From: Streptomyces sp. AA1529 | GTDB lineage: Bacteria; Actinomycetota; Actinomycetes; Streptomycetales; Streptomycetaceae | Length of the DNA stretch: 64,000 nucleotides | Assembly (NCBI RefSeq): GCF_000280905.1 | Contig: NZ_ALAP01000078.1 | Coordinates: 62,001-126,000 of the forward strand | Direction of reading: 5' to 3' | In this document: piece by piece, positions 15,988 to 35,572 of the stretch | How positions within the stretch are numbered: position 1 is the first letter of the stretch | Layout: each line of letters opens with the position of its first letter | Notes under the pieces: generated by a model | The model's input: only the letters and a program-made list of their open reading frames with translations | The model's database searches: none | Told to the model about the DNA's origin: nothing | Position numbers and translations under genes: made by a program

Positions 15988-16352
15988 GTGCGGGTTCATC
16001 TCCTACAGGTGCTACGGGTTGCCGGACAGTGCGGGGACCCATCGTAGAAGGGTTCTGTCCCCGGGTGCCCGAATCGTGCAGCAGGCATGTGACAAGGACG
16101 GAGACGGCCCCGGCACCGGTGCCCCCGCCTGTCCGGCTGTGGCCGGTTCCCGGCGGGGCCGGGCCCGCTGCGCACCGCGTGTGGCCGCCGACGACGTACC
16201 GTTCCGCCCAGGTCACGGCCGTCCGACGGGGCCCGGAAGCGGGCCGGGTCCGGTCGGCCGGCCCGGGTGTCCGGCCGGATGCCCGGGCCGGCCGCCGCCG
16301 TGGGCCACGAACTGCCGGCGCCGGGTCCGGGCGCAGGCCGTCGGACCGGTGA
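15988..16352. other. Intergenic region, 365 bp: promoter of the acidic unknown gene and end of the pen operon
   Basis: No gene is seen. The left part must hold the promoter of the acidic protein. The right part holds the terminator described at 16256-16293. An unrelated spacer of GC-rich sequence fills the rest. Confidence 0.6.
16256..16293 (-). terminator. Terminator of the pen/ispHG operon
   Basis: A 12-bp perfect stem (GGCCGGCCCGGG at 16256-16267, complement at 16282-16293) closes a 14-nt loop that itself contains CCGGCCGG. It lies 60 nt past the ispG stop codon, where the long minus-strand terpenoid operon should end. Confidence 0.65.
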
Positions 16353-17528
16353 TCACCCGTCCGAGCCCGGCTGCCCCGCCGAGGAAGCGGCCTCCGCGGG
16401 GGAGGCCCCGGACGAGTCCTGTGGCAGCAGCTCCGCGAGTCGGTGCGCCTCCTCGATGAGCGTCTCGACGATCTTCGATTCGGGTACGGTCCTGACGACC
16501 TCGCCCCGGACGAAGATCTGTCCCTTGCCGTTGCCGGAGGCCACGCCGAGGTCCGCTTCCCTGGCCTCTCCCGGACCGTTCACCACGCACCCCATGACGG
16601 CCACGCGCAGCGGGATGTCCATGTCCCGGAGCCCGGCCGTGACCTCGTCGGCCAGCTTGTAGACGTCGACCTGGGCCCGCCCGCAGGACGGGCAGGACAC
16701 GATCTCCAGTCCGCGCTGCTTGAGGTTCAGGGACTCCAGGATCTGGAGGCCGACCTTCACCTCCTCGGCGGGCGGCGCGCTCAAGGACACCCGGATGGTG
16801 TCGCCGATGCCCTGGGACAGCAGCGCGCCGAACGCGACAGCCGACTTGACCGTGCCCTGGAAGGCCGGGCCCGCCTCCGTCACGCCGAGGTGCAGCGGAT
16901 AGTCGCACGCCGCCGCGAGCTGCCGGTAGGCCTCGACCATGACGACGGGGTCGTTGTGCTTGACGGAGATCTTGATGTCCCGGAAGTCGTGCTCCTCGAA
17001 CAGCGAGGCCTCCCACAGTGCGCTCTCGACCAGCGCCTCCGGGGTGGCCTTGCCGTGCTTCCGCAGCAGACGGCGGTCGAGCGACCCGGCGTTGACCCCG
17101 ATCCGGACGGGGACGCCGTGGTCCTGCGCTGCACGCGCGATCTCGCGGACCTTGTCGTCGAACTGTCTGATGTTGCCCGGGTTGACGCGCACGGCCGCAC
17201 AGCCGGCCTCGATGGCGGCGAACACGTACTTCGGCTGGAAGTGGATGTCCGCGATCACGGGGATCCGGGACTTGCGCGCGATCGTGGGCAGCGCGTCGGC
17301 GTCGTCCTGGGTGGGACAGGCGACGCGCACGATCTGACAGCCGGACGCGGTGAGTTCGGCGATCTGCTGGAGGGTCGCGCCGATGTCGGAGGTGCGGGTC
17401 GTGGTCATGGACTGGACCGAGACCGGGGCGTCGCCGCCCACGGGTACGGTCCCCACCTGGATCTGACGGCTGGCACGGCGTCCAGCCGGCCTCGGCGGCA
17501 CCGTGGGCAGTCCGAGAGCGACAGGCAT
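16353..17528 (-). CDS. ispG: 4-hydroxy-3-methylbut-2-enyl diphosphate synthase IspG (GcpE)
   Basis: This 391-aa MEP-pathway enzyme reduces MEcPP to HMBPP using a [4Fe-4S] cluster. The N-terminal TIM-barrel part shows '[19 protein letters not shown]' and '[19 protein letters not shown]'. The C-terminal cluster domain has the ligands in '[11 protein letters not shown]' and '[11 protein letters not shown]'. Length is normal for the short bacterial form. It is 69 bp downstream of ispH and ends the terpenoid operon. Streptomyces also need a housekeeping ispG elsewhere, so this is probably a second copy recruited to the cluster; only the rest of the genome can confirm that. Confidence 0.96.
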
Positions 17529-17597
17529 GGCAGTTCCCCAAGGTGGTCGGCCGGTCCGGGCGGACCGGGTGGCGGCTGCTGGCTGGGTGCCGCGGGT

Positions 17598-18593
17598 TCA
17601 TCCCCCGCCGGGGGCGGGCGTGCGCTCGTCGGCCAGCGGTGTCCGCGGGACGCGGCCGGAGACCGGGTCGGCGAGCCGGCCGGGCATCGCGAAGACGACG
17701 TCCTCGGCGAGGCCGCGCTGGAGTTCGACCCGGTCGAATCCGAGTGCGGCGAGCCGGGTGACGAGCCCGCCGACGAGGGTCTCCGGCGCGCTGGCCCCGG
17801 CGCTGATGCCGACCGAGGACACGTTCTCCAGCCAGGCCGCTTGCAGGTGCTGTGCGTCGGGCACCAGATGGGCGGCGGCACCGTGGTCGCGGGCCACCTC
17901 CACCATGCGCAGCGAGTTGCTGGAGTTGCGCGAGCCGACGATCAGGACCAGGTCGTTGTCGCGTGCCAGGTCCTTGACGGCGTTCTGCCGGTTCTGGCTG
18001 GCGTAGCAGATGTCGTCGCCGGGGGTGATCAGGTCGGTGAAGCGGGCGCGCAGGGCCTCGACGACGCGGCCGGTCTCGTCGAACGAGAGGGTGGTCTGGG
18101 TGAGCACGGCGACCGGGGTGTCGTCGGGCAGGCCGAGGCGGCGCACGTCGTCCTCGGTCTCGACGACGACGATCCGGTCGGGGGCCTCGCCGAGGACGCC
18201 CTCGATCTCCTCGTGGCCCTCGTGGCCGACGAGGAGGATCGTGCGGCCGTCCCGGGCGAAGCGCACCGCTTCCTGGTGGACCTTGGAGACCAGCGGGCAG
18301 GTGGCGTCGATGACGTCGAGCTGCCGGTCCGCTGCGGCGGTGCGCACTCCGGGGGAGACGCCGTGCGCGGAGAAGACACAGACCGCGCCGTGCGGGACCT
18401 CCTCCTCGCTGTCGACGAAGACCGCGCCGCGCGTCCGCAGCTCGGAGACGATGTGGTGGTTGTGCACGATCTCCTTGCGCACGTACACCGGCGCCCCGTG
18501 CATGTCCAGCGCCCGCTCGACGATGCCGATGGCGCGCCGGACCCCCGCGCAGAAGCCGCGCGGCTGGGCCAGGACGACGTTCCCCGCACTCAT
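17598..18593 (-). CDS. ispH: 4-hydroxy-3-methylbut-2-enyl diphosphate reductase IspH (LytB)
   Basis: This 331-aa enzyme converts HMBPP to IPP and DMAPP, the last MEP step. The three conserved cysteine regions are visible: 'AQPRGFCAGVRRAI' at the N-terminus, 'DATCPLVSKVH' near residue 95 and 'DDICYASQNRQNAV' near residue 195. The HMBPP-binding 'VGSRNSSNS' motif is also present. Its ATG (18593-18591) overlaps the TGA of the P450 penI in an ATGA junction, so translation is coupled to a terpene-tailoring enzyme. It is followed by ispG. This arrangement indicates dedicated precursor supply for the sesquiterpenoid, which is an inference from context. Confidence 0.96.
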   Translation of the reverse strand: MSAGNVVLAQPRGFCAGVRRAIGIVERALDMHGAPVYVRKEIVHNHHIVSELRTRGAVFVDSEEEVPHGAVCVFSAHGVSPGVRTAAADRQLDVIDATCPLVSKVHQEAVRFARDGRTILLVGHEGHEEIEGVLGEAPDRIVVVETEDDVRRLGLPDDTPVAVLTQTTLSFDETGRVVEALRARFTDLITPGDDICYASQNRQNAVKDLARDNDLVLIVGSRNSSNSLRMVEVARDHGAAAHLVPDAQHLQAAWLENVSSVGISAGASAPETLVGGLVTRLAALGFDRVELQRGLAEDVVFAMPGRLADPVSGRVPRTPLADERTPAPGGG

Positions 18594-19984
18594 GTCGGGT
18601 CACCCCCGGCCGGCGCGGGGACGGCGGCGGCCGTCCGGCGCGGGGTGCGCGCGTCCAGTCGCAGGCGCAGCCGGCGCGGGTGGTAGACGGTGGCCAGCGG
18701 AACCGGGCGGATGTCCATGCCGGGCTCGCAGGTGACCCGCCAGCGGCCGAGGATGGTGGCGAGCCCCAGCGCGGCCTCGGTGCGTGCGTAGAGGTCGCCG
18801 ATGCACTTGCGGGCGCCGGTGCCGAACGGCACGTAGGCGTGCCGGGAGGCGGGCGCGACCCGGTCCGGGAGCCAGCGGTCGGGGTCGAACGTCGCGGGGT
18901 CGTCGAAGGCGTCCGCGTACTGGGCGACCGCGGCGGGGCTGAAGACGACGGTGGAGCCGGCGGGCAGCCGGCGGCCGGCGAGTTCGGTCGGGGCGGCGGT
19001 GAGCCGGGTGAACAGCCAGGCGGGCGGGTGCAGTCGCAGCGTCTCGGAGATGATCCGGTCGGTCAGGGAGAGCTTCGGCAGGTCGTCCCACTGCGGGGCA
19101 CGCCCCTCCAGAACGGTGTCCATCTCCTCGTACAGCGCGGCCTCGATCTCCGGGTGCTGGGAGAGCAGGTAGAAGACCCAGGTGAGGGTACCGGCGACGG
19201 TCTCGGTGCCGGCCGCCATCACGGTGATCACCTGGTCGTGGATCTCCCGGTCCGCGAGCCGGCCGCCGTCGTCGTCGCGGGAGGCGAGCAGGGCGGCGAG
19301 CAGGTCGTCGCGCTCGGTCCCGTCCGCACGGTAGTCGTCGATGAGCCGCTGGGTGGTCGCGTGCAGGAAGTCCAGGTTGCTCCTGTAGCGCCGGTTGGAC
19401 GGCAGGGGCATGCGGCGGACCGAGGCCGGCAGGAACATCTGCCGGAACAGGCCGTTGAGCACGACGTCGAAGGAACGTTCCACCTGCGCCGCCAGTTCGG
19501 GGCTGACGGGTGTGGAGTACAGGGTGCGGCCGACCGTGCGCAGGGCCATGCCGTACATCTCCTGGAAGGCGTCGACGACCATGCCGTCCTGCCACCGGGA
19601 GGCCGTGGCCTCGATCTCGGCGTGCATGGCCTCGGAGTAGCGCTTGAGCTGGCCGCGGGTGAACGCGGACTGCATCAGCCGGCGCTGCCGGCGGTGGTCG
19701 GCGAACGGGCAGGTGACCAGGCCGTTGCCGGCGATGTCGCGGGCGCGGTCGTAGAAGACGCCGCCCTTGTCGAAGATGCGGTCGTTCGTCAGGACGTGCC
19801 GCAGCAGTTCGGGATGGGTCGGCACATAGGCCCTGGTGGGGCCGATCTTGATCTCGACCAGGTCGCCGTGGGCCGAGAGCGACGTCATGAAGTTCACGGG
19901 GTGCCGCATCATCTGGAGGGCGTGTCCCACCACGGGGAAGGCCCCGGGCGCCGTTCCCGCTGAAAAGGTGCTCTCCTCGGTCAT
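18590..19984 (-). CDS. penI: Cytochrome P450, pentalenene oxygenase (PenI/PtlI-like, CYP183-type)
   Basis: This 464-aa P450 has the I-helix 'MAAGTETVAGTLTW', the ExxR motif in 'SETLRLHPPAW' and the heme-binding 'FGTGARKCIGD' with the axial cysteine at about residue 394. The N-terminal 'HGDLVEIKIGPTRAYVPTHPELLRHVLTNDRIFDKGG'-type region (quoted by feature, not in full homology) resembles PtlI, which oxidises pentalenene via 1-deoxypentalen-13-ol to 1-deoxypentalenal. It lies 109 bp downstream of the pentalenene synthase and is coupled to ispH. The subfamily is assigned from memory of the family and from context; the P450 identity itself is certain. Redox partners are not encoded nearby. Confidence 0.88.
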   Translation of the reverse strand: MTEESTFSAGTAPGAFPVVGHALQMMRHPVNFMTSLSAHGDLVEIKIGPTRAYVPTHPELLRHVLTNDRIFDKGGVFYDRARDIAGNGLVTCPFADHRRQRRLMQSAFTRGQLKRYSEAMHAEIEATASRWQDGMVVDAFQEMYGMALRTVGRTLYSTPVSPELAAQVERSFDVVLNGLFRQMFLPASVRRMPLPSNRRYRSNLDFLHATTQRLIDDYRADGTERDDLLAALLASRDDDGGRLADREIHDQVITVMAAGTETVAGTLTWVFYLLSQHPEIEAALYEEMDTVLEGRAPQWDDLPKLSLTDRIISETLRLHPPAWLFTRLTAAPTELAGRRLPAGSTVVFSPAAVAQYADAFDDPATFDPDRWLPDRVAPASRHAYVPFGTGARKCIGDLYARTEAALGLATILGRWRVTCEPGMDIRPVPLATVYHPRRLRLRLDARTPRRTAAAVPAPAGGDPT

Positions 19985-20093
19985 CCGATTCTCAACTTCC
20001 CGTGTTGTGGCGGTTGGCTGTCCGCCCCTCCAGGCCGGAGGCCGGCTGTCCGCGGCGGCCGGGCGGAGGTGCGCGGTGCGGGGGCAGGGGGCA

Positions 20094-21107
20094 CTAGCGG
20101 GCGGTGCTGCCGAGTTCCTCCAGGTAGCCCCGGGAGCCGGCGGCGAGGGCGAACTCGGCGTCGTAGCGGCCCGAGGAGCGGTGCCAGTCGTAGGAACCGC
20201 GGATCACCGGGCGTATCGCGTCCGTGCGGTAGCGCTCCAGCGCCTCGCGCTCGTCCGGGTCGAGCCGGTAGATCTCGCCCAGCCGCGGCAGACACGACTC
20301 GAGCAGCAGGAACTGCTCCAGCCGGGCGTGCACCTCGTCCTGGAGGTGGGTGATGCTGCGGCTTCTGGACCAGCCGTGCTCCCGGTGCAGGATCAGGACG
20401 AGGTTGTTCTGCTCGCCGCGGGCCTCCTCCTTCTCCAGCGAGGCGATGTCGTTGAGCATCAGGTTGACGTCGACGGCGACCTGGAGCATCGCGGACAGCA
20501 GCGTGCTGTCGAAGACCCGGTGCGGCACCTCGAAACGGCCCGCGCGCTCGGCGAGGTCCACCGTCGGCTGCACGCCGATCGTGTGCCGGCGCATGCCCAG
20601 GTACTGCGCGGCCGAGTCGCACGGCCGGTTCCAGAAGCGGCTCGCCGCCTCGTCGATGTACCCGTCGAAGTAGTTGCGCCAGTGCCGGGCGCTGCGCGCG
20701 CACCAGGCCGGGGTCATGCCCTCGCGGGTGCGCCGCCAGATGTCGGCGAAGCCGTGGGCGATCGGCGGCGCCTCCTCCGGCAGCGGACCGTCCAGCGCGG
20801 CCGCCACCGCACCGGTCAGCTGCCCGGCCTGTTCGGGGTCCTCGCCGCGCGGCCCGTCGAAGAGGTCGTCGAACAGGAAGAACCACGACATCAGATCGAC
20901 GCCCAGGTCGAGATCGGTGCCGGTGGCGTGCGGGTAGAAACGGGAGGCCAGGTCGGCGTAGCTGCCCCGCAGATGGCGTTCGGCCGCCATGTCGGACTTG
21001 ATCAGACCGAGCGAGCGCGGCCACGCCAACTGCTCCGCCTCGGCCCGGGCATGATCGGGGCTCTGCCGGCCCGGCAGGGGTATTCGGATGTCGATGTCCT
21101 GCGGCAT
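20094..21107 (-). CDS. penA: Pentalenene synthase
   Basis: This 337-aa class I terpene cyclase converts farnesyl diphosphate to pentalenene. The metal-binding motif falls at Asp80, Asp81 and Asp84 ('FFLFDDLFDG') with the aromatic pair Phe76-Phe77. The NSE triad is at Asn219, Ser223 and Glu227 ('NDIASLEKE'), and Trp308-His309 lie in 'YDWHRSSGRYDAEF'. These are the same positions as in the characterised Streptomyces exfoliatus enzyme, also 337 aa. The N-terminal 'IPLPGRQSPDHARAEAEQL' also matches that enzyme as I recall it. It follows penB by 102 bp and precedes penI. This gene fixes the identity of the cluster. Confidence 0.97.
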   Translation of the reverse strand: MPQDIDIRIPLPGRQSPDHARAEAEQLAWPRSLGLIKSDMAAERHLRGSYADLASRFYPHATGTDLDLGVDLMSWFFLFDDLFDGPRGEDPEQAGQLTGAVAAALDGPLPEEAPPIAHGFADIWRRTREGMTPAWCARSARHWRNYFDGYIDEAASRFWNRPCDSAAQYLGMRRHTIGVQPTVDLAERAGRFEVPHRVFDSTLLSAMLQVAVDVNLMLNDIASLEKEEARGEQNNLVLILHREHGWSRSRSITHLQDEVHARLEQFLLLESCLPRLGEIYRLDPDEREALERYRTDAIRPVIRGSYDWHRSSGRYDAEFALAAGSRGYLEELGSTAR

Positions 21108-21209: not shown

Positions 21210-22223
21210 TCACCCGTCCCGGTCGACGACGAAGCGTCCGAGCGCGAGCAGTTCCTCGCGCGCACCGGCGTCCAGGTCGACGCCGAGCAGCGCGTCCTCG
21301 GCCAGCTTCATCCGCCGGGCGGCCTCGGCCAGGGCCCACTCCCGGCCACCGGCCCCGTCGATCAGTTCGGCCGCGCGCCGCAGTTCCTCCTCGCCGGGCT
21401 CGCCGGGCGCGGACAGCCAGGTGCCCAGCTCGACGCCGAGCGTGCCGCCCTGCTGGAGCGCGTAGCTGACGGGCAGGGACTTCTTGCGGGCGCGCAGATC
21501 GGAGTGGACCGATTTGCCGGTGACGGCCGGGTCGCCCCAGATGCCGAGGACGTCGTCGGTGAGCTGGAAGGCGCGGCCCACCTCGTCGCCGTAGCGGGCC
21601 AGCGCATCCACCGTCGCCGCCGGTGCTCCGGCCAGGACGGCGCCGATCGCGGAGCTCGCCGACAGCAGCGCGCCGGTCTTGTCGGCGGCCATGTCGAGGC
21701 ACTCGTCGACCGTGACGTACGGGCGCCGCTCGAAGGACAGGTCCTGGACCTGCCCCCGGATGAGGTGCCGGGTGGTGCGGGCCAGCAGCAGGGCGGCGGG
21801 CACGGCCGTCGGAGTCCCCGCGTCCAGCAGCACCTCCTGGGCGAGCGTCAGCATCGCGTCACCGGTCAGGATCGCGCTGGAGGAGCCCCACAGCTTCCAC
21901 ACGGTGCGCTTGTGGCGGCGTTCCTCGTCGCCGTCCATCAGGTCGTCGTGCACCAGGGAGAAGTTGTGCACCAGTTCCACGGCGACGGCGCCCGGCAGGG
22001 CGACCTGCGGGGAGGCACCGACCGCCTCGGCGGACAGCAGCGCGAGCGCCGGCCGGACGGCCTTGCCGGCATCGCCGTTCGTGGGCGCCCCGCCGGCCGT
22101 GATCCAGCCGAAGTGATAGGCGGCCTGGTGCCGTGAGCGGTGGTCCAGCCGGTCGACGGCGGCCCGCAGTGCCGGTGTGATGGTGGCCCGGCTGTGGCTG
22201 AGACGCGTGGGCGCGGTGCTCAT
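21210..22223 (-). CDS. penB: Farnesyl diphosphate synthase (cluster-specific polyprenyl synthetase)
   Basis: This 337-aa trans-prenyltransferase condenses IPP with DMAPP/GPP to farnesyl diphosphate. The first aspartate-rich motif is '[12 protein letters not shown]' and the second '[13 protein letters not shown]', with '[18 protein letters not shown]' between them. I start it at ATG 22223 ('[14 protein letters not shown]'), which overlaps the TGA of penD in an ATGA junction; the much longer open frame upstream is an artefact. It lies directly upstream of the pentalenene synthase, so its product is presumably channelled to that enzyme. Chain length cannot be proven from sequence but C15 is required by the neighbour. 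Confidence 0.93.
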
Positions 22224-23119
22224 ACGGCGGCCTCCGCATGCCAGGGAGCGGCCGGGTCGTCGAAGATGCTGACGACCTGCCGCATGAGGCGCCGTTCGGC
22301 CGGGTCGAAGGGCTGCTTGGCGTGGATGGTGCCGAGCTGGTCCCACATGACGATGTCCCCGGGCTGCCAGGTGTGGGCGTAGGTGTGCTCGGGTCTGCCC
22401 GCGTGCGACAGCAGTTCGTCGAGCAGTTTGCGGCTCTCGTCGGGGGCGAGGTCGACGATCCGCTTGGTGTTCAGGGTGCTGACGTAGACCGACTGACGGC
22501 CGGTCCGCGGATTGCGGGCGATCAGCGGGTGGACGGTGGAGGTGCCGTCCTCGGGCTGGATCCGCCTGCCGCTCTCGCCGAGGGACACCTCGCCCTGCAG
22601 CTCTTCCTCGATGGTCTCCTCGTACCCGGTGCGCAGGCCGTGCCGGACCCGGTAGGAGTGCAGGCGCCGGCGCTCCTCGGGCGGCAGCGAGTCGTACAGG
22701 GCGTACATGTCGGTGAAGAGGGTCTGTCCGCCGCCGGAGGGCGGCACTTCCAGGGCCTCCAGGAAGCCGACCTGGGAGACACGGGGGCGGAAGGAGTAGT
22801 CGGTGTGCCACGCCATCCAGGCGGCGTCCCCGACACCGATCTTGCGGCCGTCCTCCAGCAGATTGGAGACGATCAGGATCTCGTTGTGGTCGGGGTGGGC
22901 ACCGCTGGTCAGGCCGGTCTTCGGGATGTACCCGAAGCGACTTCCGAAGGCCAGGAACTCCGCGTAGGAGGGGGTTTCGTGGCCGCGGAAGACGAGCACG
23001 AGATGCTCGTCGAGCGCCGCCCGGATCTCCTCGCACTGGGAGCTGCCCAGGTCGCCGGTGACCTGGGAGCCGTGTACGACGGCGCCGAGAGCGGCGCCGG
23101 GGATCGGCGTGACGTCCAT
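22220..23119 (-). CDS. penD: 2-oxoglutarate-dependent dioxygenase PenD/PtlD (pentalenolactone F-forming type)
   Basis: This 299-aa TauD-family non-heme iron enzyme has the HxD pair in '[11 protein letters not shown]', the distal histidine in '[14 protein letters not shown]' and the 2-oxoglutarate arginine in 'ERRLMRQVV'. The ATG at 23119 gives '[17 protein letters not shown]', a normal TauD-family start. In the known pathway PenD/PtlD performs a desaturation followed by an epoxidation on pentalenolactone D, giving pentalenolactone E and then F. It lies between the Baeyer-Villiger monooxygenase and FPP synthase genes, in the same order as the published pen/ptl clusters as I recall them. Confidence 0.9.
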
Positions 23120-23153
23120 GGGCGTTGCCGCCTTTCGTGAAACGGTGGGATGG

Positions 23154-24968
23154 TCAGCGCAGTTCCAGACCGGCGAGGTCACCCGCCTCGCGCCAGCGCC
23201 GGAGGATGTTCACGAACTCCACGGAGCCGCCGCCGTAACTGGAGTTGAGCAGCGGCAGCCCGGCCGGATCGCCCTCGTTGTTGTACAGACCGGGTGTGCA
23301 GTTCTCCAGGAAGTCGATGTCGCTGCTGGCGAGCCGGAGGATCTCCTCGACCCATTCCTTCTCGCCGGTCCCGGACGCCTCCACGACCCGGTGGCCACGC
23401 TCCTCCACGCACTTGACGATGTGCGCGAGGTGCCGGGCCTGCTCGCCGAGCATGTAGGCGATGTTGACGTGCCGGCCGGCCTGGATCTTGGACAGGATGA
23501 AGCAGTTGGGGAAGCCGTTCACCTGCAACCCGTGCAGGGTGTGCGCGCCGTCCGCCCACTTCTGCGACAGCCTCAGGCCGTCGCGGCCGACGATGTCGTA
23601 GCCGGCGCGGTCGGTGTACGGGACGGCGAACTCGTGCTCGTATCCGGTGGCGAAGACCAGGCAGTCGAGCGGGTACTCCCGGCCGTTCGCGACCACCCCG
23701 GCCGCGGTGAGCCGCTCCACACCCTGCCCCTGGGTGTCGACCAGGGTCACGTTGGGCCGGTTGAAGGTCTGCAGGTAGCTGTCGTGGAAGCAGGGCCGCT
23801 TGCAGTACACGCGGTAGTACGGCTTGAGGGCGGCGGCGGTGGCCGGGTCGTCGACGAAGCTGTCGATGCGGGCGCGCAGTTCCTCCATCTTGCGGAAGTC
23901 CGCCTGTTCGGCGGCGAGCGCCCGCTCCTTCGGGTCGCCCCCGGTGTCGCCGGTGGGCAGGATCGCGGCGGCCAGCTCGGCCGTGGTCTGGGTCCAGCGG
24001 TCCTGGACCAGGTCCTCGTCCTGCGGGATGCCGGAGGTCAGCGCGTGGAAGTTCTCCATGCGGCGCTGCTGCCAGCCCGGTTCGAGGCTGTCCGCCCAGT
24101 CCGGCTCGGTGGGCCGGTTGCCGCGGACGTCGACCGCCGCCGGGGTCCGCTGGAAGACGACGAGCTGTTCGGCCCACTCGGCGAGGTGCGGGGCGATCTG
24201 GACCGTCGTCGAGCCGGTGCCGATGACGCCGACGGTCTTGTCCGTCAGCCCGGTCAGACCGCCGGTGCTGTCGCCGCCGGTGTAGTCGAAGTCCCAGCGG
24301 CTGGTGTGGAAGGAGTGTCCGGCGAACGTCTCCAGCCCCGGCAGCCCGGGGAGTTTCGGGCGGTGCATCAGGCCGATCGACATGGACACGTACCGGGCCC
24401 GGATGACATCCCCGCGGTCGGTGCTCACCAGCCACTTCCCGGCGGCCTCGTCCCAGCGCAGCTCGGTGACGGTGGTCTGGAAGAGGGCGTCGCGGTAGAG
24501 GTCGTATCTGCGGGCGATCTGCTGGAGGTGCGCGAAGATCTCGGGGCCGGTGGAGTACTTCTCGGTGGGTATCGTCCCGATCTCCTCGAGGATCGGCATG
24601 TAGATGTAGCTCTCGACGTCGCACCGGACGCCGGGGAAGCGGTTCCAGTACCAGGTGCCGCCGACGTCGCCCGCCTCGTCGATCAGCCGGATGCGCTCCA
24701 GGCCGGTCTCCTCGCGCAGGTGCGCGCCGGTCAGCAGGCCGCCGATGCCGGCGCCGACGACGGCGACGTCCACCTCGTCGGTGAGCGGCTCGCGTTCCTT
24801 CCGCTCGGTGTAGGGGTCGCGCGCATAGCGGCTGAAGTCACCGCGCGCGAACTGGTACGTGCGACCGGCGCTGCGCTTGTCGCGTTCCTGCCGGTACTTC
24901 TCCCTCACCGCTTCCAGGTCGATGGCCGGTGTCTCGTCGCTACGGTCGTCGCTGTCGGCGCGGGCCAC
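23154..24968 (-). CDS. penE: Baeyer-Villiger monooxygenase PenE/PtlE (pentalenolactone D synthase type)
   Basis: This 604-aa flavin monooxygenase shows the FAD Rossmann motif '[12 protein letters not shown]' near residue 70, the BVMO fingerprint '[13 protein letters not shown]' and the NADPH motif '[11 protein letters not shown]'. The long N-terminal extension is typical of the PtlE/PenE subgroup. GTG 24968 is preceded by GAGGAG at 5 nt and starts 2 nt after the SDR stop codon. The enzyme inserts oxygen next to the ring ketone of 1-deoxy-11-oxopentalenic acid. PenE gives pentalenolactone D and PtlE gives neopentalenolactone D. Sequence alone does not tell me the regiochemistry, but the presence of penM favours PenE. 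Confidence 0.92.
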
Positions 24969-24970
24969 AG

Positions 24971-25750
24971 CTACTCCTCGGGGGAAGGGGACGGAAGGGG
25001 AACATGACGCCACACCTCGTCGAACTGGGCACGCAGCCGCTGCGGGGCGTCGGGGTTGCTGAACAGGTAGAACCGGTCGGAGCCGAGGGCTTCCCACACG
25101 AGCCCGGCGACGTCCTCGGCGCTGACCGACGTGTCACCGCCGGCACCCCGCGGGGCCGCCAGGCCCTGCACCATGGGGGTGTCGACCCGGCCGGGGCACA
25201 GCACCGACACCCGGATCCCGGTGCCCCGCAGATCGGCCCGCAGGCTGCGGGCGACCGCGAGGTCGGCGTGTTTGGAGGCGGCGTAGGCCGCGCTGCCGGC
25301 GCCGACGACGAATGCGGACATCGAGGCCGTGTGGATCAGATGGGCCGGGCGGCCGCGCTCCAGGAGCCGGGGGACGAAGGCGCGGGCCACCAGGACGTGC
25401 GCCCAGTGGTTGGCCTCGAAGACCTGCCGCATCCGCTCCAGCGGCACCTCCCACAGCGGCTGCCCCACTGGGCCGAGCACCCCCGCGTTGTTGCACACCA
25501 CGTCGATGCCGCCGAGCCGGTCGAACGCCGTGTCCGCGAGCCGGTCGACGGCATGCGGATCGGTCAGGTCGGCCGTCACCGCCGTGACCCGGGCGCCCTG
25601 TGCGGCGAGTTCGGACGCCCGGCGGTGCACCGCCTCGTCGATGTCCGTCATGAGCACGCCGAGGCCGGCGCGCGCGAAGCGGGCACCGAGAGCGAGGCCG
25701 ATGCCGCTGGCGGCGCCGGTCACCACGGCTGTCCTGATCTGCAGGTCCAC
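24971..25750 (-). CDS. penF: Short-chain dehydrogenase PenF/PtlF
   Basis: This 259-aa classical SDR has the cofactor motif 'VVTGAASGIGLAL' at residue 9, 'NNAGVLG', the catalytic serine in 'HTASMSAF' and the 'YAASKHA' Tyr-Lys pair. In the pathway it oxidises 1-deoxy-11-beta-hydroxypentalenic acid to the 11-keto acid, the substrate of the Baeyer-Villiger enzyme encoded just downstream. The GTG start at 25750 has a weak GGAGAGAG stretch before it. It is separated by 2 nt from penE and by 96 bp from penG, consistent with one transcript. Confidence 0.9.
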   Translation of the reverse strand: MDLQIRTAVVTGAASGIGLALGARFARAGLGVLMTDIDEAVHRRASELAAQGARVTAVTADLTDPHAVDRLADTAFDRLGGIDVVCNNAGVLGPVGQPLWEVPLERMRQVFEANHWAHVLVARAFVPRLLERGRPAHLIHTASMSAFVVGAGSAAYAASKHADLAVARSLRADLRGTGIRVSVLCPGRVDTPMVQGLAAPRGAGGDTSVSAEDVAGLVWEALGSDRFYLFSNPDAPQRLRAQFDEVWRHVPLPSPSPEE

Positions 25751-25846: not shown

Positions 25847-27301
25847 TCAGCGGGGGTCGGGGAGCTTCAGACTGATCACGAGGACGGCCGCCGCGAAGCA
25901 CGTCAGCAGGGCGAGGACGAGGACGGCCGCCGTCGCCGTCGAGAACGGGCCGTCCAGGGAGACGAAGAGGGTTCCGCCGACGGTCGTGCCCAGCGCGGTC
26001 GCCATCTGCTGGCTGGTCACCAGCACACCGCTGCCCATGCCGGCCTGTGCGGGAGGTACGTCGGCGAGGATCATCCGGAACAGCGTGGGACCGATCAGCG
26101 CCGCACCGGCGCCGAAGAGGGCGATCCCGATGAGCACGAGCGTCAGGGAGGGATGCGGCCAGCCCAGCCCCATCACCAGCGCCAGCAGCACCAGACCCGC
26201 GCCCTGGACGAGGGCGCCCAGGGTGACGATCCGGCCGCCCAGGGCCGCCACGATCTTCGGGGTGAACTGCGCGACCGCGAAGAACGCCACGGCGAACGGC
26301 GCCAGCCCCCCGCCGGAGGCCAGCCCGTGGAAGCCGAAGTGTCCCTGCGCGATCAGCGCGTAGACGAACAGAAAGGCGCCGAAGCCGGCCTGGAAGGGCA
26401 CCACGGCCGCGAGCCCCCGGCGCGTGCCCGGATGGGACAGCACCGACGGGGACAGCAGCGGTGAGCCGCCCCGCGCCTCCAGCCCGCGCTCGACCCGCAC
26501 CAGCGCCGACAGCCCCGCCGCGGCGACCACGAGCAGCGACCACAGCCACAGCGGCCAGTCCAGATCGGGACCCGCCACGACCACGGCCAGGACACAGACC
26601 ATGGTGGCGCCGAACAGCAGGGTGCCCAGCGGGTCGAAACCGGGCCTGGTCCCGGCCCTGGTCGCGGGGACCCGCCGGATCGCCAGCAGTGCGGCGACCC
26701 CGACCGGCACGTTGATCAGGAAGACCGACCGCCAGCCGACCCCGGCGATGTCCAGCGAGACCAGCAGCCCGCCCAGGATCTGCCCGACGACCATGCCGAG
26801 GGCCGCGGTCACGCCGTACATGGCGATCGCGCGGGCCCGCTCGCGGCCCTGGCTGACCGCCTGGATCGTCGCCAGCACCTGTGGTACGAGCATGGCGGCG
26901 GCGGCCCCTTGGAGCAGCCGGGCCGTGACGAGGAACTCGATGGTCGGCGCGAGTCCGCACAGCGCCGAGGTGACGGTGAACGCCGCCAGCCCGTACGCGT
27001 ACAGTTCCCGCCTCCCGAAGGCGTCGCCCAGCCGTCCGCCCAGCACCAGGCCGAGGGCGTAGGTGAGGCCGTAGCCGGACACCACCAGCTCCAGCGCCGC
27101 CGGACCGCCGTGGAGATCCGCACCGATCGGGTCCAGCGCCACATTGACGATGGAGGCGTCCACGATGGACAGGGCGTACCCGATGAGGACCACCACGAGG
27201 GCGACACCGCCGAGCCCCGCGGCGGCCGGTTCCGGACCGGCGGCGGACGCCGGCGTCGCGCCGGGCTCCTTGGGCGGGGAGAGTCCCTCGCGATTCGTCA
27301 T
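25847..27301 (-). CDS. penG: MFS drug exporter PenG/PtlG
   Basis: This 484-aa membrane protein of the DHA2-like (14-helix) drug:H+ antiporter group has a first helix 'GVALVVVLIGYALSIVDASIVNVAL'. The motif 'LGGRLGDAFGRRELY' lies between helices 2 and 3, and the antiporter motif C-like glycine run 'GVTAALGMVVGQILGGLL' is present. It lies between penH and penF in the biosynthetic operon. Export of pentalenolactone is the expected role and would add to target-based resistance from Gap1. The start ATG 27301 is clear and lies 55 bp after the penH stop. Confidence 0.9.
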   Translation of the reverse strand: MTNREGLSPPKEPGATPASAAGPEPAAAGLGGVALVVVLIGYALSIVDASIVNVALDPIGADLHGGPAALELVVSGYGLTYALGLVLGGRLGDAFGRRELYAYGLAAFTVTSALCGLAPTIEFLVTARLLQGAAAAMLVPQVLATIQAVSQGRERARAIAMYGVTAALGMVVGQILGGLLVSLDIAGVGWRSVFLINVPVGVAALLAIRRVPATRAGTRPGFDPLGTLLFGATMVCVLAVVVAGPDLDWPLWLWSLLVVAAAGLSALVRVERGLEARGGSPLLSPSVLSHPGTRRGLAAVVPFQAGFGAFLFVYALIAQGHFGFHGLASGGGLAPFAVAFFAVAQFTPKIVAALGGRIVTLGALVQGAGLVLLALVMGLGWPHPSLTLVLIGIALFGAGAALIGPTLFRMILADVPPAQAGMGSGVLVTSQQMATALGTTVGGTLFVSLDGPFSTATAAVLVLALLTCFAAAVLVISLKLPDPR

Positions 27302-27356: not shown

Positions 27357-28574
<1,218 letters not shown>

Positions 28575-29774
28575 TCAGAAGGTAACGGGGATTTCATCGA
28601 ACCCGCCGGTGATCCGGTGTTCCTGCCAGCGCAGTTCCTCCTCGGGTACCGCGAGCCGCAGCTCGGGCAGCCTGCGGAACAGCCGCTCGAACACCGCGGT
28701 CAGTTCGATCCGGGCCAGCACACGGCCGACGCAGTGCCGGGTGCCGTGCCCGAACGACAGATGCGGTCTGGGCCTGTCCCGGGTGATGTCCATCAGGTCG
28801 GGCTCGGGGTACGCGTGGCCGTCGACGTTGGCCGCGCCGATGGCGAGCAGCACCGCCTCCCCCGTCCGGATCACGGTGTCACCGACGGTGATGTCGCTGT
28901 GCGCGTAGCGGGGTACGAGCGCGTTGGACCCCTTGCCGCCCACGGCCAGGCGCAGGATCTCCTCGACCGCGCCCGGGGCGAGTTCGGGCTTATCGGCCAG
29001 CAGGGCACGCTGCTCCGGATTGCGCAGCATCAGCAGAGTGCCCAGGTCGATACGGACGATGGTGGTCTCGTAGCCGAACAGCAGCACGGCGTTGCCCAAC
29101 TGGGCGATGTACGCGTCGGACAGCGAACCGTCCTTGGCCGCGATCAGTTCGGACAGGATGTCGTCGCCCGGCTCCGTGCGCTTCCGCGCCACCAGTTCCG
29201 TGGTGTACTCGACGACCTGCTGGAAGGTGTGCGCCGAGTGCCGGCCGTCGTCGCTCTGGTCGAAGGTGCCTCTCGCCCACTGGCCGAACCGCTCCCGGTC
29301 GGCCCACGGCACTCCGAGCAGATCGCAGACCACCATGGTCGGCAGCGGAAACGACAGCGCGCGGTGCAGGTCGGCGGGCTGGGGGCCGGCGGCCAGTTGG
29401 TCGAGCAGTTCGTCCACGTGCTGCTCGATCCGGGACTTCATCATGCGCATCCGGCGTGTGGAGAACCGGGGGACGAGCAGCTCACGCAGCTGCGGATGGT
29501 CGGCGGCCTCGGTCTCGTAATCGTCCCCGGCCATCAGCGCCATCATGGTGTTCCGGGCCGTGGTCTTGGCCTGCCGCGCCGGGTAGGGGTTGCTGAGACC
29601 GAGCCGGCGGTCGGCGAGCAGCGCCCTGACCTCGTCGTAGCGGGTGACCAGCCAGGCGTCCTCACCGGCCGCCCGCACCGGGGTGATCGGCCCCTCCTGC
29701 TGCAGCGTGCGCATCCGGGGCGCGACGCCGAGCACGGACGGATTGTCGAACGGTAGTGTCGGCAGTTCCTCCAT
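28575..29774 (-). CDS. penM: Cytochrome P450 of the PenM/PntM type (pentalenolactone synthase)
   Basis: This 399-aa P450 has ExxR in '[10 protein letters not shown]' and the heme motif '[11 protein letters not shown]' with the cysteine at about residue 348. From memory, PntM/PenM (CYP161C) rearranges pentalenolactone F to pentalenolactone and has the unusual active-site residues Met77, Met81 and Phe232. Here Met77 and Met81 fall in '[12 protein letters not shown]' and a Phe lies at 233 in '[14 protein letters not shown]'. I start at ATG 29774 because GACGGGGG precedes it. The alternative ATG 29789 lacks a ribosome-binding site. The gene distinguishes a true pentalenolactone cluster from the neopentalenolactone cluster of S. 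avermitilis, which as I recall lacks it. Confidence 0.85.
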
Positions 29775-29951
29775 GTCCCCCGTCCTCATGAGTCAGGCAT
29801 GGCTTCGTCGGACATCCGGGCACGCCGACGGCGTCGGTGACGTCGGGTGCGCCGCGCACCGGTCGAGGGGCGCGCGGAGATGCCGGCCGCCGGTCCGGCG
29901 GACGATCATTGCTGACGTGCGGGTGGTGCGGGCGCCGGGTCGGGCTGCTGA

Positions 29952-30968
<1,017 letters not shown>

Positions 30969-31350: not shown

Positions 31351-31378
31351 TTGACAACCGGCATCGGCCCGCCATGCT
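31351..31378 (+). promoter_or_regulatory. Putative promoter of the secreted nuclease gene
   Basis: TTGACA (31351-31356), a 16-nt spacer and CATGCT (31373-31378) resemble a housekeeping sigma promoter with a perfect -35 and a weak -10. They lie about 63 bp before the GTG start at 31441. The same TTG can be misread as a start codon of a longer frame. Confidence 0.45.
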
Positions 31379-31440
31379 TTACGCGCGTAGAGAATGCCCG
31401 TGCACCGCCGTACACGCTCCCCCTACACCCGGAGGCCCAG

Positions 31441-33384
31441 GTGCCGTTCCGCCCGCCGTTCCTGCCGCCCCGCTCCTCGCCCCGACCCTCGCTCCGGCCC
31501 CGGACACCGCTCCGGCGGCTCCGGGCCGCACCGGCCGCCGTCGCCGCCGCCTGCTGCGGGCTGCTCGTGCTGCCCTCATCCGCCGGGGCCGCCGACGCGC
31601 CCGGCGCCGGCGCCGCGCACGCTCCGCGCATCCACGACATCCAGGGCCGCACCCGACTCTCCCCGTTCGCGGGCCGGGAGGTCACCGGGGTACCCGGTGT
31701 CGTCACCGGGGTCCGCGACTTCGGTGCGGCACGCGGCTTCTGGTTGCAGGACCCGCACCCCGACCGCGACCGGGCCACCAGCGAGGGGATCTACGTCCAC
31801 ACCGGAGGGGACAGCCCCGGGGTCGAGACCGGCGACGCGCTGCGGGTGACCGGGAAGGTGCAGGAGTACTACCCGGGCGGCAAGGAGGCGGGCAACCAGT
31901 CGGTCACCGAACTGAGCGGCGCCACCTGGCGGACCACCGGCCACCGCCCGCGCGGGAGGCTGCCGAGGGCCGTCCGGCTCACCGCGCACTCGGTACCGGA
32001 GGCGTACGCGCCGGACGCGGCTGGGGGTCCCCCCGGATCCGGAGCACTCGAGGGAGGGAGCATCGAGAACCGGCCGCTGCGCCCGGACCGTTACGCGCTG
32101 GACCGCTACGAGTCGCTGGAGGGCATGCGCGTCTCCGTGCACGACGTGCGGGTCACCGGTCCCACCAGCCGCTACCACGACCTGTGGGTGACCACCGACC
32201 CGGACCAGCACCCGACTCCGCGCGGCGGCACCCTCTACGGCTCCTACGAGGACCGCAACGGCGCCCGGATGAAGATCTCCTCGCTGCTCCCCCTCGACAC
32301 GCACCCCTTCCCCGAGGCCGACGTCGGCGACTCGCTGCGCGGCACCACCGAAGGCCCGCTGGACTACGAGCAGTACGGCGGCTACACGCTGCGCGCCACC
32401 GCACTGGGCGAGCTCCGGGACAACGGCCTGGAGCGCGAACGGACCCGCAGGCAGCGGCGGAACGAACTGGCAGTGGCGACGTACAACGTCGAGAACCTCT
32501 CCCCCGCCTCCGAGCCCGCCAAGTTCGAGCGGCTGGCCGAGGGCCTGGTCACCAACCTCTCCTCCCCCGACATCGTCACCGTCGAGGAGGTCCAGGGCGA
32601 CTCGGGGCCGCAGGACGACGGCACCGTCGGCGCGGAGCGGACGCTCACGAGACTGACCGAGGCCATCCGGAAGGCGGGCGGGCCCTCCTACGCGTGGCGC
32701 CAGATCGACCCGGAGGACAAGGCGGACGGCGGCCGGCCCGGCGGCAACATCCGCGTGGCCTTCCTCTACAACCCCGCCCGGGTGTCCTTCACCGACCGGC
32801 CCGGCGGCGACGCCACCACCCCGGTACGGGTCCTGGAGCGGGGCGGCGAGCCCGCGCTGTCCGCCTCACCCGGCCGGATCGCACCGCGGGACGCCGCCTG
32901 GGAGGACAGCCGCAAGCCGCTGGCGGGCGAGTTCCGCTTCCGGGGCAGCACGGTCTTCGTGATCGCCGGCCACTTCAGCTCCAAGGGCGGCGACCAGCCG
33001 ATGGAGGGCCGCATCCAGCCGCCCGCCCGGCACTCGGAACAGCAGCGCGTCGCACAGGCCGAGGCGGTGAACGGCTTCGTGCGCACGCTGCGGGACGTCG
33101 ACCCGGAAGCGGTGGTCGTGGCGGGCGGCGACTTCAACGACTTCCCCTTCTCCCCCACCCTGCGCACGCTGCGCTCGGGCCACGCGCTGACCAGCCCGCT
33201 CGACCGGCTGCCCCGCGACGAGCGGTACGGCTACGTCTACAACGGGAACTCCCAGACCCTGGACCATCTGCTGACCAGCCCGGGCGCCGGGCGGCCCGAG
33301 TACGACATCGTCCACATCAACGCGGAGTTCGCCGACCAGGTCAGCGACCACGATCCGTCGGTCGTCCGGATCACCCGCCGCTGA
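31441..33384 (+). CDS. Secreted endonuclease/exonuclease/phosphatase-family nuclease
   Basis: This 647-aa protein starts at GTG 31441, with GGAGG at 6 nt. A long Arg/Pro-rich N-region precedes a hydrophobic signal core ('AAPAAVAAACCGLLVLPSSAGA'). The mature part begins with an OB-like domain ('VTGVPGVVTGVRDFGAARGFWLQD', quoted loosely). It is followed by a C-terminal EEP catalytic domain with 'VATYNVENL', 'IVTVEEVQ', 'GGDFNDFPF' and 'DHDPSVV'. The layout is that of ExeM/NucH-like extracellular DNases. Around 32020-32065 a short G- and C-run segment encodes 'AAGGPPGSGALEGG', which looks like an inserted loop. The role is probably extracellular nucleic-acid degradation. Confidence 0.88.
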   Translation: MPFRPPFLPPRSSPRPSLRPRTPLRRLRAAPAAVAAACCGLLVLPSSAGAADAPGAGAAHAPRIHDIQGRTRLSPFAGREVTGVPGVVTGVRDFGAARGFWLQDPHPDRDRATSEGIYVHTGGDSPGVETGDALRVTGKVQEYYPGGKEAGNQSVTELSGATWRTTGHRPRGRLPRAVRLTAHSVPEAYAPDAAGGPPGSGALEGGSIENRPLRPDRYALDRYESLEGMRVSVHDVRVTGPTSRYHDLWVTTDPDQHPTPRGGTLYGSYEDRNGARMKISSLLPLDTHPFPEADVGDSLRGTTEGPLDYEQYGGYTLRATALGELRDNGLERERTRRQRRNELAVATYNVENLSPASEPAKFERLAEGLVTNLSSPDIVTVEEVQGDSGPQDDGTVGAERTLTRLTEAIRKAGGPSYAWRQIDPEDKADGGRPGGNIRVAFLYNPARVSFTDRPGGDATTPVRVLERGGEPALSASPGRIAPRDAAWEDSRKPLAGEFRFRGSTVFVIAGHFSSKGGDQPMEGRIQPPARHSEQQRVAQAEAVNGFVRTLRDVDPEAVVVAGGDFNDFPFSPTLRTLRSGHALTSPLDRLPRDERYGYVYNGNSQTLDHLLTSPGAGRPEYDIVHINAEFADQVSDHDPSVVRITRR

Positions 33385-33463: not shown

Positions 33464-34447
33464 TCAGGCCCACCGCGGCGGCTTGCCGCCCCGGTGCCCG
33501 GACGGCGGCGGAACAGCGGGCTGTCCGCCGTGCGGGGGCGCCCCGGGCGAGCCGTGGGGCGGTGTCCCCGGCGCGCCGTGGGGCGGTACCGGAGGGGCGC
33601 CGTACGGGGCGCCCGGCGCTCCGGGGACCGGGCCCGGGCGGCCGGCCGGACCCTGGGGCGGCGGCCCTCCGGCACCCGGCGCCGCTCCGGGTGCGCCGGG
33701 CCCGGGCCGGGTTCCGGTCAGGTCCCGCACCAGCAGGGTCGCGCCCGCGACGGCACCCGGCATCAGCGGGACGGCGAGCAGCGGCACCAGGAAGGCCAGC
33801 GCCAGGGGCACTCCGAAGCCCAGCGCGAGGGCCTTGCGCCGGCGCAGCATCGCCAGCCGCTCCCGAACCGGGACGCCCCGGCGTTGCAGCCCGACCGAGG
33901 CGAGTTCCAGGGTGAGGAAGAATCCCGCGACGCAGAAGCCGAGCGCCGGGACGACGCTCTGCCCGAGCAGCGGGACGAAGCCGAGGAAGAAGAGCGGAAC
34001 CGTGAACAGCAGCGTCCGGAAGAGCACGTAGGCGCTGTCGCACAGCGAGGTCCACAGCTCCCGCCACAGGGGCCGGTCGACGACCTGCCCGGGCAGTCCG
34101 CCCTCGCTCTCCTCGACCCGTTCGGAGAGCTTCTCGTAGAACGGGTCGCCGATCAGCAGGGTGACCGCCGCGAACGTCACCACGGCCAGCATCAGCACGG
34201 CGCACCACAGCATGACCGCGAAGGCACCGCGGGTCAGGGCGCGGCCGGTGGCGTCCCAGTCGTCGGCGAAGGGCGTGGCCCAGGCGGCGAGGTCGTCGGC
34301 GTAGAAGCCGAGCGCGACGAGGGCCGCCGCGTAGAGGACGAATGTGATCAGCGCGGGCAGCAGCCCGAACCCGAACCACCGCCCGTGGGTGAGCACCCAC
34401 CGCTGTCCCCGCCCCAAGTACCGCAGCCCGGCCCCAAGATCACGCAT
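33464..34447 (-). CDS. EI24/CysZ-like membrane protein
   Basis: This 327-aa protein has several transmembrane helices ('GFGLLPALITFVLYAAALVALGF', 'LWCAVLMLAVVTFAAVTLLI', 'TLLFTVPLFFLGFVPLLGQ', 'LALAFLVPLLAVPLMPGAVAG', abbreviated). The sequence 'GDPFYEKLSERVEE' is typical of the EI24 domain family that includes the sulfate transporter CysZ. The C-terminal 90 residues are a Gly/Pro-rich cytoplasmic tail with repeats of 'PPHGAPGTPPHGSPGAPPHGG'-like units. The function in actinomycetes is unknown. The start ATG 34447 has no ribosome-binding site but a -10-like TAGGCT 6 nt upstream, suggesting a leaderless mRNA. Confidence 0.82.
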   Translation of the reverse strand: MRDLGAGLRYLGRGQRWVLTHGRWFGFGLLPALITFVLYAAALVALGFYADDLAAWATPFADDWDATGRALTRGAFAVMLWCAVLMLAVVTFAAVTLLIGDPFYEKLSERVEESEGGLPGQVVDRPLWRELWTSLCDSAYVLFRTLLFTVPLFFLGFVPLLGQSVVPALGFCVAGFFLTLELASVGLQRRGVPVRERLAMLRRRKALALGFGVPLALAFLVPLLAVPLMPGAVAGATLLVRDLTGTRPGPGAPGAAPGAGGPPPQGPAGRPGPVPGAPGAPYGAPPVPPHGAPGTPPHGSPGAPPHGGQPAVPPPSGHRGGKPPRWA

Positions 34448-34585: not shown

Positions 34586-35572
34586 TCAGTTGTGGCTGTG
34601 CAGCGCCTCGTTCAGGCCGCCCCACGAGCCGCTGCGCTGCAGGGCCTCGACGGCGCCGGTGACCGAGTTGCGGCGGAAGAGCAGGTTGTTGGCGCCGGAC
34701 AGCTCCAGCGCCTTGACGATCTTCCCGTCCGGGAGGGTGACGCGGGTACCGGCCGTGACATAGAGGCCGGCCTCGACGACCGAGTCGTCGCCGAGCGAGA
34801 TCCCGATGCCCGCCTCGGCACCGATCAGGCAGCGCTCGCCGATGGAGACGACCTGCTTGCCGCCGCCGGAGAGGGTGCCCATGATCGAGGCGCCGCCGCC
34901 CAGGTCGGTGCCGTCGCCGAGGACGACTCCCGCGCTGATCCGGCCCTCGACCATGGAGGTGCCCAGGGTGCCGGCGTTGAAGTTGCAGAAGCCCTCGTGC
35001 ATGACGGTGGTGCCCTCGGCGAGGTGCGCGCCCAGCCGGACCCGGTCGGCGTCGCCGATCCGGACGCCCTTGGGGACCACGTAGTCGGTCATCCGCGGGA
35101 ACTTGTCCACGCTGGTCACCGCCAGGTGCGCACCGGAGGCACGGGCGGCGAGCCGGGCCCGGTCGACCTGGTCGACCGGCACCGGACCCAGGTTGGTCCA
35201 GGCGACATTGGCCAGGTGCGCGAACTGCCCTTCCAGGCTGAGCCCGTGCGGGCGTACCAGGCGGTGGCTGAGCAGGTGCAGGCGCAGATACACGTCGTGC
35301 GCGTCCAGCGGCTTGTCGTCCAGGGAGGAGATGACCGTGCGGACGGCGACGATCTCGACGCCGCGGCGCGGGTCCTCCCCGAGTGCCTGCGGCGCGGCGC
35401 TGCCGAGCAGCTCGGCGGCGCGCTCGGCGTTCAGCCGCTCGCTGCCCGCCGGGCCGGGCTCCGCGACGAGCTCCGGGCTGGGGAACCAGGTGTCCAGGAC
35501 CGTGCCGTCGGCGACGGTGGCGAGGCCGGCGGCGACGGCGCCGGTGGTGCGGAGAGTGGGTGCGTCGGTCAT
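34586..35572 (-). CDS. dapD: 2,3,4,5-tetrahydropyridine-2,6-dicarboxylate N-succinyltransferase DapD
   Basis: This 328-aa actinobacterial-type DapD acts in the succinylase branch of lysine/diaminopimelate synthesis. The C-terminal half is a left-handed parallel beta-helix of hexapeptide repeats ('[20 protein letters not shown]', '[12 protein letters not shown]'-like turns, '[19 protein letters not shown]'). The N-terminal half carries the actinobacterial extension ('[16 protein letters not shown]'). Length is as expected. A TAGCGT box ends 7 nt before ATG 35572, so the gene may be leaderless, although a GAGG lies within the same stretch. It is transcribed alone between the EI24-like gene and the SMR regulator. 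Confidence 0.93.

Follow-up and report, generated by a model that had tools for sequence, protein, structure and literature searches.

The ispH and ispG genes that follow a pentalenene oxygenase gene (penI) in a 64,000-nucleotide stretch of the Streptomyces sp. AA1529 genome (contig NZ_ALAP01000078.1, positions 62,001 to 126,000; the window) are probably the surviving two-thirds of a dedicated methylerythritol phosphate (MEP) pathway booster cassette, ispH-dxs-ispG, that closes the pentalenolactone operon at its 3' end and has been repeatedly eroded. The cassette has most likely been with the operon since before the sampled clusters diverged. Because the two genes are extra copies and many relatives have them in the same place, last in this operon, built-in precursor supply is the most economical reading of what they do. 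The features concerned are:

16353..17528, minus strand: cluster ispG (gcpE), 391 aa, second copy (open reading frame (ORF), profile matches, structure alignment)
17529..17597, no strand: ispH-ispG spacer, 69 bp, the dxs site of relatives (junction alignment)
17551..17568, no strand: 18-bp palindrome ending 22 bp before the ispG start (sequence)
17598..18593, minus strand: cluster ispH (lytB), 331 aa, second copy, cluster-type IspH group (ORF, profiles, tree, alignment)
18590..18593, minus strand: ATGA overlap of the penI stop and the ispH start (sequence)

Profile comparisons bear out the first-pass annotation in naming the two reading frames ispG and ispH. Cluster IspG exceeds the cut-offs of TIGR00612 (422 versus 280 bits) and PRK00366 (536 versus 345), and cluster IspH exceeds those of the general models TIGR00216 (296 versus 188) and Pfam LYTB (301 versus 24.5) and lies slightly below those of three narrower NCBIfam models (439 versus 444, 409 versus 420 and 376 versus 389). 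The IspH motifs GFCAGV, DATCPL, GHEGHEEIEG, TQTTLS, DDICYA and SSNS align with the solved enzyme 3urk_A, and the IspG motifs, including SCPSCGR and the CPxC and C..E cluster ligands, align with the solved enzyme 3noy_A. We take the aligned IspH residues to be the three iron-sulfur cysteines and the active-site H, E, T, S and N, and the CPxC and C..E motifs of IspG to be iron-sulfur ligands. By profile both are complete enzymes, with predicted activity. A GC-position gene picker, a crude tool that in places favoured antisense ORFs, chose an antisense ORF at 16443..18686 on the plus strand over ispH and ispG, and was overruled by the profile matches. The overlap with the oxygenase gene also stands as first described, the penI stop and the ispH ATG sharing ATGA at 18590-18593, and ispG starts 69 bp past the ispH stop. 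The position of ispG after ispH at the operon end likewise holds, but the terminator proposed beyond it was not confirmed: a scan of 15800-20200 that detects T-tailed hairpins only returned none, with 0.6 expected by chance.

Whether the two genes are additional to a housekeeping set depends on the rest of the genome, which comprises 7.28 Mb in 108 contigs and is rated 100% complete. A whole-genome search located a second ispH on contig C22 and a second ispG on contig C32. The cluster genes are therefore extra copies, and the objection foreseen in the first-pass annotation, that they might be the sole housekeeping copies, is ruled out. The cluster copy is 54% identical to the other genomic copy for IspH and 85% for IspG. 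One full-length dxs, one dxr match and one ispF match were obtained genome-wide, and a search of the same genome for HMG-CoA synthase gave no match.

We scanned a genome collection with PenI and obtained 37 loci, 32 of which contained penA, the pentalenene synthase gene, and were kept; the five dropped (L031, L036, L037, L039 and L040) had a P450 at 57-66% and no penA found in the locus. Adding the window, G088, G252 and G117 gave 36 pentalenolactone-type loci, with G093, G133, G029, G281 and G377 left out as duplicates of named loci. A separate sample of the genus, 392 genomes, yielded PenI-type matches with E-values of 1e-150 or better in 19, nine of which exceeded the curated cut-off. The fullest arrangement across the 36 loci is penI-ispH-dxs-ispG; the dxs gene that lies between ispH and ispG in many relatives encodes a protein of about 595 aa that shares 58% identity with the one Dxs of the window genome. 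With a gene counted as intact when its ORF covers more than 93% of the reference, the trio is intact in 11 loci (L006, L011, L012, L019 from S. minutiscleroticus JCM 4790, L020, L026, L030, L033, L035, L038 and G252), is interrupted by a contig end in L025 and L041, and in L007 is present with the ispG frame disrupted, perhaps through an assembly error. Just two loci, the window and its close relative G088, have ispH and ispG without dxs. Elsewhere ispH is truncated with dxs and ispG intact (L014), ispH-dxs is deleted with ispG intact (L009), ispH is intact with neither dxs nor ispG intact (L018, L022), or fragments alone are left (L005, L010, L015, L024). A protein search found nothing of the cassette in the other 12. 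In one of these, L032, a clear remnant of the ispH 5' end immediately follows the penI stop (blastn E 6e-19), and L034 has a 24-base ispH match starting at the penI stop, a score equalled by 6 of 1000 random stretches. G117 shows a weak ispH match away from the junction (3 of 1000 random stretches score as high), L008 has a short match described below, and nothing convincing was seen as an ispH scar in the remaining eight. Cassette genes or clear fragments are thus present in 25 of the 36 loci, or 27 counting L034 and L008. In Streptomyces silaceus (L023:9024-10214), a PenM-like P450 (66%) stands directly after penI, at the usual place of ispH.

This distribution changes the view of the window in two respects. 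The first-pass annotation took the ispH-ispG pair to be the design, whereas in its fullest form the module is a trio, dxs being the middle gene; after penI the window has ispH and ispG alone, a reduced form of the cassette. It had also suggested a new cluster architecture. Because the arrangement recurs across loci, an architecture unique to the window strain is ruled out, and novelty in a strong sense is contradicted both by the cassette genes or clear fragments in those 25 loci and by MEP genes already in print for other bacterial terpenoid clusters, in passages of PMC8073705 and PMC13022886.

Alignment of the window with L006, L011 and L030 shows that its spacer is the ispH end joined to the 3' end of the dxs-ispG spacer, and G088 has the same dxs-less junction form. 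In the next-closest relative, S. qinglanensis L005, only ispH residues ~7-47 and ispG residues ~320-386 follow penI; the two fragments lie about a dozen bases apart, and the downstream gene is 93% identical to that of the window. The state of this relative, with its matching downstream gene, and the several independent losses implied by the penA and penI tree described below, would be expected if the window pair were a decaying passenger, of no measurable benefit after the loss of dxs and on its way to the S. qinglanensis state. Yet in both the window and G088, neither of which has dxs, ispH and ispG are open, with nonsynonymous changes far below neutral. Between these two loci 21 of 54 changes in ispH are nonsynonymous (neutral mean 38.7) and 21 of 73 in ispG (neutral mean 54.5), and for each gene none of 5000 simulations was as low. 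The ratio dN/dS is 0.22 for ispH, 0.14 for ispG, 0.04 for penA and 0.10 for penI. Because the nonsynonymous changes fall below all 5000 neutral simulations, the pair is still maintained by purifying selection, less strictly than penA and penI, and we regard the passenger explanation as improbable.

In a DNA tree of penA and penI, the 14 loci of the trio class (the 11 intact ones plus L025, L041 and L007) are found to either side of the midpoint root as well as along the backbone; the has/lost state takes 8 changes on this tree and a four-state label 12. The protein trees were quick trees with Shimodaira-Hasegawa-like approximate likelihood ratio test (SH-aLRT) supports only, from which duplicate copies had been removed beforehand, and their labels "housekeeping" and "other" were assigned manually on the basis of identity and copy, not neighbourhood. 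In these, the Dxs proteins of the clusters group together (SH-aLRT 95), separate from the main chromosomal Dxs, and branch in an order that broadly follows the cluster. Loss is favoured over gain on two grounds, the fragments found at one and the same junction and the single, cluster-like grouping of these Dxs proteins. The pentalenolactone-cluster IspH proteins also form one group, with one exception: L026 is joined at support 89 by L204, which is the G085 locus IspH. The window IspH belongs to a 12-row group composed of pentalenolactone-cluster sequences only (98), and the window IspG to an 11-row group of the same kind (97). The clusters themselves may not be fixed in place. The cluster in L116, which has no cassette, is on contig C2 of G117, at 342,739 bases the size of the plasmid of Streptomyces sp. 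NBC_00557, which carries a close penI (92%). This match in size suggests that the pentalenolactone-type cluster can move. Among 57 records in a search for a close cluster IspH on plasmids, every one was below 60% identity.

Several observations weigh against an ancient cassette kept for precursor supply. The main doubt is that the window genome has a single dxs, which may limit flux ahead of the doubled steps. The cassette is also dispensable, as seen from the 12 of 36 clusters in which the protein search found none, and in eight of these (L008, L016, L017, L021, L027, L028, L032 and L034) the genes M, H, T, F, E, B, A and I are still in view. The L008 match counted above consists of 14 of the first 15 ispH bases after the penI stop, and taken as a free local match it is not significant, its score being reached by 77 of 1000 random stretches. 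The number of changes on the penA and penI tree cannot tell gain from loss, and IspG of these clusters is not one group (3 changes, weak supports), because of which ispG may have been exchanged. The higher dN/dS of ispH than of penA and penI may reflect weaker constraint. Lastly, the palindrome and the longer dxs-ispG spacer could be signs that ispG is driven from a promoter of its own.

The last point bears on how the cassette is expressed. Among the 18 intact ispH starts in the 36 loci, 15 have an RTGA overlap with penI, 12 exact and three in frame (L025, L038 and G252, in which the N-terminal length differs by one codon); the start is not in the overlap in L012, L020 and L026. Conservation of the overlap across loci suggests that translation of ispH is coupled to that of penI. 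For ispG, an alternative is that it lies outside the operon under its own promoter or operator, the palindrome at 17551-17568, and that the genes are merely adjacent and separately controlled. The 7-bp arms of this palindrome are found upstream of 13 of the 17 pentalenolactone-cluster ispG starts in view and are absent in L026, L035, L038 and L041, all with a short dxs-ispG spacer; the palindrome is also absent at the window genome's other ispG (L003). It has no other exact match in the window, and with up to three mismatches there are 13 matches against 5.83 expected, a weak excess since 2 of 100 shuffles reach 13. A 14-base core occurs in one unrelated locus, L055. Against separate control, ispH itself overlaps penI, no sigma-70-like promoter was found around ispH and ispG in 15800-20200 (Streptomyces promoters being poorly covered by such a search), and the palindrome was rejected as an unusually stable RNA hairpin, its fold being no better than that of shuffles (z -0.34). 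On this evidence, separate control of ispG seems unlikely.

The rest of the operon identifies the setting. Models for pentalenene synthase, pentalenene oxygenase, PtlD, PenH, pentalenolactone synthase and GAPDH-I (glyceraldehyde-3-phosphate dehydrogenase, GAPDH) are all over cut-off, and the window holds a pentalenolactone-type gene set up to gap1, with a predicted product of that type:

18590..19984, minus strand: penI, pentalenene oxygenase P450 (profile 866 versus cut-off 800 bits)
20094..21107, minus strand: penA, pentalenene synthase (profile 681 versus 675 bits)
21210..22223, minus strand: polyprenyl (probably farnesyl) diphosphate synthase, PtlB position (Pfam)
22220..23182, minus strand: penD-type dioxygenase (profile 572 versus 550 bits)
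23154..25097, minus strand: penE-type flavin monooxygenase, true start probably further in (Pfam only)
24971..25750, minus strand: penF-type short-chain dehydrogenase (Pfam only)
25847..27301, minus strand: major facilitator superfamily (MFS) exporter (NCBIfam/Pfam)
27357..28241, minus strand: penH, 1-deoxypentalenic acid 11-beta-hydroxylase type (profile 585 versus 550 bits)
28575..29789, minus strand: penM, pentalenolactone synthase type P450 (profile 758 versus 700 bits)
29952..30956, minus strand: gap1, GAPDH (GAPDH-I model over cut-off)

Like the ptl, pen and pnt clusters of S. avermitilis, S. exfoliatus and S. arenae, the window has gap1, the PenM, PenH, PenF, PenE and PenD types, a prenyl diphosphate synthase, PenA and PenI. 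A resistance role for gap1 in such clusters is described in passages of PMC11727764. An ORF at 23179..24624 was considered as PenE and rejected, having no profile match and being in the wrong frame. The operon contains a second ATGA overlap, between the penD and prenyl diphosphate synthase genes at 22220-22223. No Pfam match to a MarR-type regulator was obtained in three ORFs upstream of gap1 (31351..33384, 33464..34447 and 34586..35572), others there being unscanned.

In this setting, an intact cassette would double the entry enzyme Dxs and the two oxygen-sensitive iron-sulfur enzymes IspG and IspH, while the middle MEP-pathway steps would stay with other chromosomal genes. Presumably co-transcribed with the rest, the extra IspG and IspH would, once the operon is on, pull methylerythritol cyclodiphosphate (MEcPP) to isopentenyl and dimethylallyl diphosphate (IPP and DMAPP). 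These would be consumed by the polyprenyl synthase and pentalenene synthase of the cluster, and supply would rise together with those enzymes, ispH translation being tied to penI through the stop/start overlap; such supply would be the selected benefit. Strains with the whole trio would also gain entry flux from Dxs, while a clean dxs deletion in the window lineage would have left the last two steps still doubled and under selection.

Similar modules occur more widely in the genus. An IspH at least 60% identical to that of the window is encoded in at least 30 of the 392 genomes, five of which have a pentalenolactone-type penI. We examined 19 of the 27 non-pentalenolactone IspH loci, from 18 genomes, in a 15-kb view: dxs and ispG are in view in 12, ispG only in one and neither in six, though in two of these six (G353 and G012) both genes are present 8-10 kb away from ispH. 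In L111, dxs and ispG are on the strand opposite to ispH. In the modules of L093-L098, L100, L104-L106 and L110, IspH is 63-82% identical to that of the window and Dxs 61-74% to that of L006, and a polyprenyl-synthase match lies between ispH and dxs in L100, L104, L105, L106 and L110 (Pfam-checked in L100 and L106). The three genes of the cassette make up these modules too, but they are not flanked by pentalenolactone genes. Sampled neighbours include nonribosomal peptide synthetase (NRPS), ABC transporter, tryptophan halogenase, P450, UbiA prenyltransferase and polyprenyl synthase genes, as well as transposase, regulator and primary-metabolism-like genes; the module in L097 adjoins an NRPS-type gene, that in L093 an ABC transporter gene and that in L096 a halogenase and a P450. 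In L108 (6971-8989), the last MEP enzyme and a prenyl diphosphate synthase are naturally fused: a single 672-aa ORF contains an IspH (LYTB) and then a polyprenyl synthase domain, and ispG is just downstream.

Neither tree places the module IspH or Dxs among the 16 main chromosomal copies, and a 29-row Dxs group (SH-aLRT 98) consists of 15 cluster and 14 module Dxs proteins. Two things argue against the idea that the extra copies serve mainly general isoprenoid needs, as back-up or under stress, and are in the cluster by chance: they occupy the same position in many genomes, and IspH and Dxs group with those of ispH-dxs-ispG modules, which often adjoin biosynthetic genes, and not with the main chromosomal copies. 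Such copies would be complete enzymes by profile, as these are, but we consider this explanation highly improbable. A bolder proposal, which we put forward tentatively and with some doubt, is that Streptomyces keep a separate IspH/Dxs lineage specialised for secondary metabolism, with the module exchanged among terpenoid, meroterpenoid and peptide clusters and with enzyme properties unlike the main chromosomal ones (oxygen tolerance, IPP:DMAPP ratio or feedback escape). The pentalenolactone clusters would then be a stepwise reduction series, and the value of each bottleneck enzyme would be readable from related strains.

MEP genes are known inside terpenoid clusters, among them the phenalinolactone, platensimycin, xiamycin and hopanoid clusters, and the ispH-dxs-ispG trio at pentalenolactone loci, with its erosion, is a variant of that idea. 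The cyanobacterium HT-58-2 is reported to have dxs, ispG, ispH and further isoprenoid genes both in its putative tolypodiol cluster and elsewhere in the genome (passages of PMC8073705); this cluster shares with the window the presence of MEP genes within a terpenoid cluster but differs in phylum and product. Parts of PMC13022886 list IDI, DXR, DXS, IspH and IspG among the genes of Pseudomonas clusters for farnesyl diphosphate (FPP)-derived C17 terpenes, with another gene set, bacterium and product. Cluster 25 of Streptomyces sp. Go-475 has an IspH homolog with a polyprenyl synthase and a prenyltransferase (passages of PMC6007079); IspH is common to it and the window, with dxs and ispG unmentioned for Go-475 in those passages. 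The accessible text of the pentalenolactone papers PMC11727764 and PMC12967844 makes no mention of ispH or ispG, nor that of PMC12967844, the only one in which it was sought, of dxs. In the corresponding text of PMC6955855 and PMC8772769 the terms occur only in general pathway text, in relation to volatile antibiotics or in reference lists, and PMC10301674 contains no ispH, ispG, 1-deoxy-D-xylulose or MEP pathway wording. We did not find the trio and its erosion in pentalenolactone clusters in the open literature, a scope that excludes the original cluster papers.

Passages of a 2026 review name Dxs as the rate-limiting enzyme of the MEP pathway and IspG and IspH as its bottlenecks (PMC13001223). 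An antibiotic operon, where the cassette is whole, holds exactly the three limiting MEP enzymes named there, and its relatives have lost them in different combinations. These strains offer natural comparisons for which MEP step pays off, and the cluster-adapted Dxs and IspH set provides candidates for terpenoid production.
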